DNA from: Synechococcus sp. MU1642
GTDB taxonomy: Bacteria; Cyanobacteriota; Cyanobacteriia; PCC-6307; Cyanobiaceae
Assembly: GCF_020514115.1 (NCBI RefSeq)
Contig: NZ_VTKZ01000001.1
Span: 310,001-374,000, forward strand
Length of the DNA stretch: 64,000 nt
Reading direction: 5' to 3'
The notes beneath the pieces are model-generated. The model searched no databases, was not told the origin of the DNA, and saw only the letters and a list, made by a program, of their open reading frames with translations. How positions within the stretch are numbered: position 1 is the first letter of the stretch; every line of letters starts with the position of its first letter. Below, in pieces: positions 32,300-63,655 of the stretch. The translations under genes and the position numbers were made by a program.

Positions 32300-32458
32300 C
32301 TTTCTCTTGCGCGGTGCCCACGCCCCCGTTGCTTGGCGTGGATCTGACTGCTGCCTGCTGAAGAGGCTCAACGTGACCACACCCTAGCCCTAGTTTGTAT
32401 CAACCGCTACTGTTTTTCTGCTTCGTTGTGGGGGGCTTGGCAGCATGGGTCTTGATGA

Positions 32459-33157: not shown

Positions 33158-33421
33158 TCAGGCCTTGTTTCCTTTGTCGTCCCAGTACTCGATCCTTCTC
33201 ACTTCAAGGGCGTCTTGTTTCAATTTGGTGGCGATCTCCTTGGCTCTCGCTCTCAGGTACAACTCATCCGCCACCAGGCTTTGGTAAACGATCTCCTCCA
33301 GTGTTTCTGCTGGAGCTTCTGAGACGATCTGCTTTACGTCATCCTTGCTCAGCTTCACGTCAGTTCGGATGCTGACGGTCTGCTCGAAGTCGAACTCGAT
33401 TTCGTTGATTACCGTTTCCAT
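33158..33421 (-). CDS. Hypothetical protein, 87 aa
   Basis: Starts METVINEIEFDFEQTVSIRT; acidic, beta N-terminal part and a long C-terminal helix (DELYLRARAKEIATKLKQD). GGAAGG precedes the ATG. A strong intrinsic terminator sits only about 15 bases upstream of the start, so expression probably depends on attenuation or an unseen promoter. No family is recognised. Confidence 0.65.
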   Translation of the reverse strand: METVINEIEFDFEQTVSIRTDVKLSKDDVKQIVSEAPAETLEEIVYQSLVADELYLRARAKEIATKLKQDALEVRRIEYWDDKGNKA

Positions 33422-33435
33422 GGGATTCCTTCCAG

Positions 33436-33467
33436 GCAAAAAGAAACCCCCGCCAAAGGCAGGGGTT
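33436..33467 (-). terminator. Intrinsic terminator/attenuator before the 33158 gene
   Basis: On the minus strand AACCCCTGCC-TTT-GGCGGGGGTT forms a 10-bp stem (one G-T) followed by TCTTTTT. It ends about 15 bases before the start codon of the downstream gene. It may terminate the DUF1651 transcript or act as an attenuator. Confidence 0.75.
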
Positions 33468-33599
33468 CCAAAACGACTCGCAGGAGTGTGTCCTTGTTTC
33501 CACCCTGCGAGGCACTTTTCCTCACACATCAAAGATGGCAACACGAGGCTCGCGGTGGGATTGCTGATGGACAGCCTCGCGGTTGGCACCAGGCCCGTC

Positions 33600-33848
33600 T
33601 CAAAGTTCAGCCGCATCGCCCCAGGCCGGAGACGCAAGGCGCTTCCAGCCTTGGGTCTGCAATGACGCCCAGAGTTGTTCTGCTTCGGCCTTTCTGAGAT
33701 GTCGCCGCTCCTTCAGTAGGGGAGGGCCATCAGGCAGGCGTCGGCCTCTGTCGATGAAAACCTTCGGCTCGTTGATCCATCCCTTCTGATCGCGATGGAA
33801 TCGCCAGATCCAACGGCCATCACTGTCAATTAGCCAGCCTTCTCCCAT
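33600..33848 (-). CDS. DUF1651 protein, SOS-box linked
   Basis: An 82-residue protein typical of the picocyanobacterial DUF1651 family: GEGWLIDSDGRWIWRFHRD, KVFIDRGRRLP, PPLLKERRHLRKAEAEQL. Small, Trp-rich, probably soluble. A consensus LexA box lies 12 bases upstream of the start, suggesting induction by DNA damage. The function of DUF1651 is unknown. Confidence 0.82.
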   Translation of the reverse strand: MGEGWLIDSDGRWIWRFHRDQKGWINEPKVFIDRGRRLPDGPPLLKERRHLRKAEAEQLWASLQTQGWKRLASPAWGDAAEL

Positions 33849-34244
33849 GACATTGCTATGAGTACACCAGTACTAGCAATGACGAGCGTGGGCGGTCAAG
33901 TGAGCTCCTGTCTCAAGTTCAAGCCAAAACAAGGAGCAATTAGTCCAACCCCTCGGAGACGCATGGAAAGAATTGGTGCTTTCGTGTTGCACTGCCCATA
34001 GCGCTGGAGCTTTCGCGGGGATCGATCTGCACGTTTTTAGGCATTACTGCTTAAAAAGAGCTGTTCTCACTCGAGTGATGATTCGGTCGGCGGGAGAATC
34101 ACTGCCAACGCTTCGGGCAGTTGAAAGAGCGCAGGTTCCCTCGCCTGCGCCTCCCCCACGCATTCAAGGGAAGACGTCGCCGGTCCAGCTGCCTTGGCAC
34201 CGATGGGCTGATCCAGCTAACAACCCTTCAGGATCTACCGCATC
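33849..34244. other. Intergenic region with SOS box and petF promoter
   Basis: About 395 bases without a supported gene. It holds the SOS box at its left edge and must contain the petF promoter on the right. A frame at 33973-34473 is open but runs antisense-like through petF and has no coding bias. Confidence 0.5.
33861..33874 (-). promoter_or_regulatory. LexA-type SOS box
   Basis: AGTACACCAGTACT fits the cyanobacterial LexA consensus RGTAC-NNN-DGTWCB at every position and is nearly palindromic. It ends 12 bases before the DUF1651 start codon, where it would block the promoter or leader. Confidence 0.7.
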
Positions 34245-63419: not shown

Positions 63420-63655
63420 GCTTGCAAACGAACTGCTGTGTTGGTGACGGCCTTTTCTAGTGCTCTGATCTGACTCTCTTTCGACTTGGGGAGACTGTCG
63501 TGACGGTGACGTAGACCGGCCATGCAGCCGGAAACGAAACCCCACTTTGTCGCCCCTTCTGGTTCTTCCAGGTCGACCACTGGGGCTCGCACGGCATGGT
63601 GGTTCACCCTCTTCAATTCATTGCTTGGTCGTTGCCTGGATCTGACCCAAGCCAT
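63416..63655 (-). CDS. Hypothetical basic protein, 79 aa
   Basis: A mixed basic N-terminus followed by DLEEPEGATKWGFVSGCMAG and a Lys/Glu-rich helical end (KSKESQIRALEKAVTN). The short hydrophobic KWGFVSGCMAGL segment gives a faint HLIP-like look but lacks the ExxN/HxxR chlorophyll motif. Convergent with purK through CTAG. Confidence 0.5.
   Translation of the reverse strand: MAWVRSRQRPSNELKRVNHHAVRAPVVDLEEPEGATKWGFVSGCMAGLRHRHDSLPKSKESQIRALEKAVTNTAVRLQA

Follow-up and report, generated by a model that had tools for sequence, protein, structure and literature searches.

A conserved LexA-type box before FHRD-type DUF1651 genes of Synechococcus suggests an SOS link for a small-protein subfamily

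Introduction

The closest described counterpart of the locus considered here is the LexA regulon of marine picocyanobacteria, for which Kolowrat et al. reported the motif TAGTACA-N2-TGTACTA before recA, umuC, umuD and lexA of Prochlorococcus (PMC2921402), and Tetu et al. found recA, lexA and umuC to be raised by mitomycin C in two marine Synechococcus (PMC3744912). A rise under mitomycin C was seen for SYNW1405/sync_1474 as well (PMC3744912). Because only part of the genes with predicted LexA boxes rose under this treatment, 15 of 27 in CC9311 and 10 of 46 in WH8102 (PMC3744912), induction is to be measured gene by gene. The LexA of Synechocystis is reportedly uncoupled from the SOS response (PMC3744912). 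DUF1651, a multi-copy picocyanobacterial family without a known role, has been described in connection with phage infection: five DUF1651 genes apart from SYNW1658, spread over three marine strains, rise in infected cells, and phage yield fell when SYNW1659 was knocked out, a disruption expected to silence the DUF1651 gene SYNW1658 as well (PMC5490813). Here, a DUF1651 gene of Synechococcus sp. MU1642 is compared with these systems by way of a LexA-type box that lies close to its start.

Results

The window, that is, the whole 64,000-nucleotide stretch analysed, carries at 33600-33848 on the minus strand a gene for an 82-aa protein whose assignment to DUF1651 in the initial annotation is borne out by its match to PF07864 (E 8e-23; 81.1 bits against a Pfam cut-off of 22), and which falls into the FHRD subfamily in the tree described below. 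The ATG is at 33848, and the 12 bases 33860-33849 separate it, at the distance first proposed, from a LexA-type box with the palindromic arms AGTAC/GTACT, AGTACTGGTGTACT, at 33861-33874 on the minus strand. The full consensus match claimed for this box also holds, as RGTACNNNDGTWCB is satisfied at every position and on both strands, and the box is the only consensus site in the 64-kb window. A chance match without function would be compatible with such a finding, since a single ten-base palindrome in 64 kb is by itself no great rarity; 100 shuffles of the window gave a mean of 0.16 strand-matches, and two of them reached two. In the 2.1-Mb genome as a whole, the consensus has six sites (four forward and three reverse strand-matches) against 25 and 26 matches of the reversed control pattern, so that there is no enrichment and counts of the loose consensus say little. 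GTAC is present in both arms at three of these six sites, namely the window site, a site before a umuD gene (C20:176610) and a site 112 bases before the recA match (C5:93868). Judged by sequence, the lone site in the window would be weak evidence, and it is conservation before the relatives of the gene that decides.

This conservation is extensive. The ten best matches in the genus, which come from ten genomes, include the window gene and have at least 85% identity, each carry a box at a fixed distance, perfect in nine and with 9 of 10 arm bases in the tenth (G028). In all ten loci (L017-L026) the gene is followed by a Cyano-1 RNA, and of the nine other than the window locus (L018-L026), eight have window neighbours such as ferredoxin and uridine kinase, seven of these also nth; the ninth, L022, has no neighbour in common with the window within 3.2 kb. 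For a broader sample, at least 96 DUF1651 matches in 18 near-complete genomes were reduced to 80 domains by leaving out 15 with an uncovered domain start and one other, and the 90 bases upstream of each domain were searched for the site scoring best against AGTACNNNNGTACT. Among the matches listed, two types of DUF1651 gene can be told apart, 32 of the FHRD type in 17 of the 18 genomes (30 by pattern, with L163, which has an internal stop and is 89% identical, and the truncated L216 added by hand) and 48 of the other type. In this sample, 26 of the 32 FHRD-type genes have at least eight of the ten arm bases 18-24 bases before the domain (ten in 16, nine in 8 and eight in 2), whereas this holds for 0 of the 48 other-type genes, none of which exceeds seven. 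A chance match, which is most improbable on these figures, is ruled out by this conservation, as eight arm bases are reached in four of 320 control windows taken from further upstream, and nine or more in none. The expectation that the box would stand before orthologues has thus come out as conservation in 10 of 10 of the closest genes (9-10 arm bases) and, among the matches listed, in the 26 subfamily members just given.

A tree of 87 DUF1651 proteins, drawn from the matches listed and from other genera, splits the two types at 100/100 support, and the box follows the split, being present in 35 of 42 on one side and 0 of 45 on the other; sequences too short for the tree (4 of the 32 FHRD-type and 3 of the 48 other-type genus genes) and 7 of 21 other-genera loci were left out. 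A LexA-box link for the whole DUF1651 family is therefore ruled out in the genus by the other-type genes among the matches listed. In 13 box-bearing relatives, which were chosen as such and show which columns vary and not how often the box is retained, the first arm is invariant and the second differs at one position in a single gene, while variation is seen in each of the four spacer columns and throughout the flanks, the T before the box excepted; fixed arms with variable spacer and flanks are the pattern that a protein-binding site would leave. Six of the 32 FHRD-type genes among the matches listed are without a box of their own. In three cases (L146, L150 and L161, of which L161 belongs to the genome of the window), the DUF1651 gene comes second, immediately after a Cys-rich gene whose stop codon touches or overlaps the DUF1651 start, and all three of these Cys-rich genes are themselves preceded by AGAACnnnnGAACT (8 of 10), at a distance of 18 bases from the ATG. 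The remaining three (L176, L207 and L216) are split, degraded or truncated in appearance.

The box also keeps company with other genes. AGTACNNNNGTACT occurs 76 times in 25 genomes (G000-G024, 25 of 34 genomes, with G010 and G018 having none), compared with 24 times for its reversed control, and 70 of these perfect boxes fall before genes of five kinds: DUF1651 (17), DUF3104 (16), Cys-rich (15), umuD (15) and dprA (7), with six before others. The gap from box to start codon is about 1 to 24 bases in the site groups examined. In these groups, examples were named by Pfam and NCBIfam and the remainder joined by BLAST clustering; the Pfam examples were 3 of 16 for DUF3104, 3 of 15 for Cys-rich, 2 of 15 (full length) for umuD and 1 of 7 (full length) for dprA. 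NCBIfam gave no match for the DUF1651, Cys-rich, DUF3104 or 70-residue DprA queries, and Pfam gave no model above its cut-off for the three Cys-rich examples. One of the 17 DUF1651 cases, in G012, is a remnant of 23 residues, and in the Cys-rich group L084 has a decayed appearance. DUF1651 is one of three small-protein families, with DUF3104 and Cys-rich, that have the box in common.

The Cys-rich family consists of proteins of about 75 aa with conserved cysteines (CMTCQHF...C...C...) and stands behind 15 of the 76 perfect boxes, for example at L078, L082, L103, L110, L129 and L161. It is sometimes found in one operon with DUF1651 or DUF3104; at L110 the Cys-rich site is followed by a DUF3104 gene, so that the Cys-rich and DUF3104 families also share operons. 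The seven dprA-like genes have their perfect boxes 2-13 bases upstream (L099, L104, L119, L124, L127, L128 and L132; box near position 1500 of each), which suggests that the competence and recombination gene dprA may be under SOS control in these cyanobacteria.

Beyond the genus, 201 genomes of the family were searched, and a relative at E 1e-10 was found in 73 genomes and 31 of 59 genera. Among 21 loci from other genera, 15 have at least eight arm bases (eight in 9, nine in 2 and ten in 4) and six are without a box; of 240 control windows for these loci, five have eight arm bases and none has more. In a low-GC genus (26 genomes), TAGTACnnnnGTATT, which has 9 of the 10 arm bases, is present in 8 of 29 loci (of 30, L293 being left out), always 69-71 bases upstream of the domain (L270-L273, L280, L291, L292 and L294), and 240 controls include six with eight arm bases and none with nine or more. 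All eight belong to another DUF1651 subfamily (GWL-N...VYTHL), and the box thus precedes a different DUF1651 subfamily in this second lineage.

The genome of the window encodes one LexA above the family cut-off, which can be aligned with LexA proteins of solved structure and in which the Ala-Gly, Ser and Lys positions needed for cleavage (PMC2921402) are present. Its recA has a related box, GGTACGCTTGTACT, as has its lexA, GGTACAAATGTATT, the latter being the string listed by Li et al. for lexA of two marine Synechococcus (PMC3091678). It could be proposed that the box is a real operator read by another regulator of the same taste, or by a LexA that answers to oxidative stress, phage infection or a similar signal, for which the report on Synechocystis LexA (PMC3744912) and the rise of DUF1651 genes during phage infection (PMC5490813) could be cited. 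However, this alternative is unlikely, as umuD and dprA have this very box upstream, recA and lexA have related ones, and the LexA of the genome has the cleavage residues; moreover, phage infection may itself trigger SOS. LexA as the regulator, with DNA damage as the signal, is the preferred reading.

The sequence upstream of the box, read by eye, offers a possible -35 element, TTGACC, at 33894-33899 on the minus strand, 18 bases before TAGTAC (33875-33870). No promoter was found by a consensus scan of 33400-34050; an alignment of 69 box promoters shows weak enrichment of a TTG-C-like element (0.35-0.54 bits a column), located 21-25 bases upstream of the box. If TTGACC, the 18 bases and TAGTAC form a promoter, the box would lie on the -10 region, and such an overlap is what we infer here. 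The -10 region is the usual site for a repressor. Downstream, the Cyano-1 (Yfr2-type) small RNA already mentioned is encoded on the same strand at 33467-33531 (RF01701; 53.8 bits against a gathering threshold of 41), 68 bases behind the DUF1651 stop codon; this RNA is absent behind ten other DUF1651 loci scanned (0 of 10). An intrinsic terminator of 12 pairs followed by a T-run, at 33443-33469 on the minus strand, is the only one found on that strand in 33400-34050 and comes after the Cyano-1 RNA; the same scan found none between the gene and the RNA, and read-through from DUF1651 into Cyano-1 is possible. The window further contains a Glutamine-II riboswitch aptamer (32317-32376, minus strand) and a 6S RNA (63427-63609, plus strand).

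An AlphaFold2 model of the DUF1651 protein (pLDDT 79, from five sequences) is a small sheet of four strands with one helix. Re-aligned against PDB chains, it is best matched by the WGR domain of PARP2 on DNA (Z 6.1, rmsd 2.8, 70 aligned), with further PARP1, PARP2 and PARP3 WGR entries among the top structural rows, and Foldseek returned a phage "WGR domain containing protein" at TM 0.62, albeit with E 0.31. These matches would agree with a WGR-like domain that binds damaged DNA. However, Z below 8 is a range in which common arrangements are usual, triphosphate tunnel enzymes reach 6.0 against the same predicted model, and Foldseek has no match at E 0.001 or better. Profile comparison points the same way: the FHRD profile scores 7.7-10.2 against 20 cyanobacterial WGR sequences, below the 11.2-12.4 that the FHRD set reaches with the unrelated families DUF3104, Cys-rich and UmuD, and with hhalign no similarity to the WGR profile (PF05406) was found, the probability of 0.1-0.2% from shallow alignments being no better than for unrelated families. 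A damaged-DNA-binding role of this kind is unlikely, and WGR kinship is kept as a fold lead that the profiles do not support.

Candidate relatives on the phage side were also considered. A tblastn search of the window protein in 50,697 phage records found no homologue, none was confirmed in viral contigs, and PHROG has none for it; the coliphage ECBP5, named as having a DUF1651 (PMC5490813), lay beyond the reach of these phage-homologue queries. The idea that SYNW1659-SYNW1658 is a Cys-rich plus DUF1651 operon gained no support: in the loci compared, all matches to the four published primers had 4 or more mismatches.

Discussion

Taken as a whole, the comparisons indicate that the box is very probably a LexA operator near the DUF1651 start, through which DNA damage would switch the gene on. 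In the undamaged cell, a LexA dimer on the box would hold the DUF1651 gene off. RecA, activated on single-stranded DNA, would then bring about LexA self-cleavage, upon which the 82-aa protein would be made along with RecA, UmuD, DprA, DUF3104 and the Cys-rich family. Repression by LexA and induction by damage are what we infer for DUF1651 on this account. The link to DNA damage put forward in the initial annotation is well supported by comparison, since the box is conserved before relatives of the gene and before umuD and dprA, and related boxes stand at recA and lexA; however, within the genus it applies to the FHRD subfamily and to 0 of the 48 other-type genes among the matches listed.

In our opinion, the most likely role of the DUF1651 protein is that of an accessory effector, acting in damage tolerance or in the arrested state. 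A wider proposal, offered tentatively as a less probable elaboration, is that the SOS response of marine picocyanobacteria has lineage-specific small proteins (FHRD-type DUF1651, DUF3104 and Cys-rich) as its most frequent targets, that DUF1651 serves as a DNA-facing effector induced by damage, its rise in phage infection being an SOS read-out, and that Cyano-1 is raised by read-through; with no terminator found between the gene and Cyano-1, SOS induction would on this proposal also raise Cyano-1 RNA. In the literature searched, DUF1651 occurs in the phage-infection report (PMC5490813), in which LexA does not figure, and DUF3104 in one paper; no closer account of LexA- or SOS-controlled small proteins was seen among the matches listed, supplements, most subscription papers and preprints lying outside the search, and the tables of Li et al. 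may contain genes of this kind under the label hypothetical. DUF1651 is accordingly filed as a candidate new member of the LexA regulon, with three orphan families appearing together. For one subfamily, the box supplies a likely signal (DNA damage), a likely regulator (LexA) and companions (UmuD, DprA, DUF3104 and the Cys-rich family), and an orphan thereby becomes a testable part of the DNA-damage response in very abundant photosynthetic cells of the ocean. The SOS box is also one candidate explanation for the rise of DUF1651 genes in phage infection.

Compared with known systems, three likenesses stand out, each with its difference. The WGR domain (PF05406) of PARP1, PARP2 and PARP3 has a strand and helix arrangement like that of the predicted DUF1651 model, but differs by the absence of profile similarity. 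The DUF1651 host-response genes described in Synechococcus and Prochlorococcus under phage attack belong to the same Pfam family as the window gene, but were reported for phage infection, in a paper from which the word LexA is absent (PMC5490813). The LexA (SOS) regulon of marine picocyanobacteria (recA, lexA, umuCD) has the same 14-base type of box at a short distance from the gene, and the genome of the window likewise encodes a LexA that looks cleavable; unlike the known genes of that regulon, DUF1651 codes for a lineage-specific small protein, and is a member predicted by sequence.
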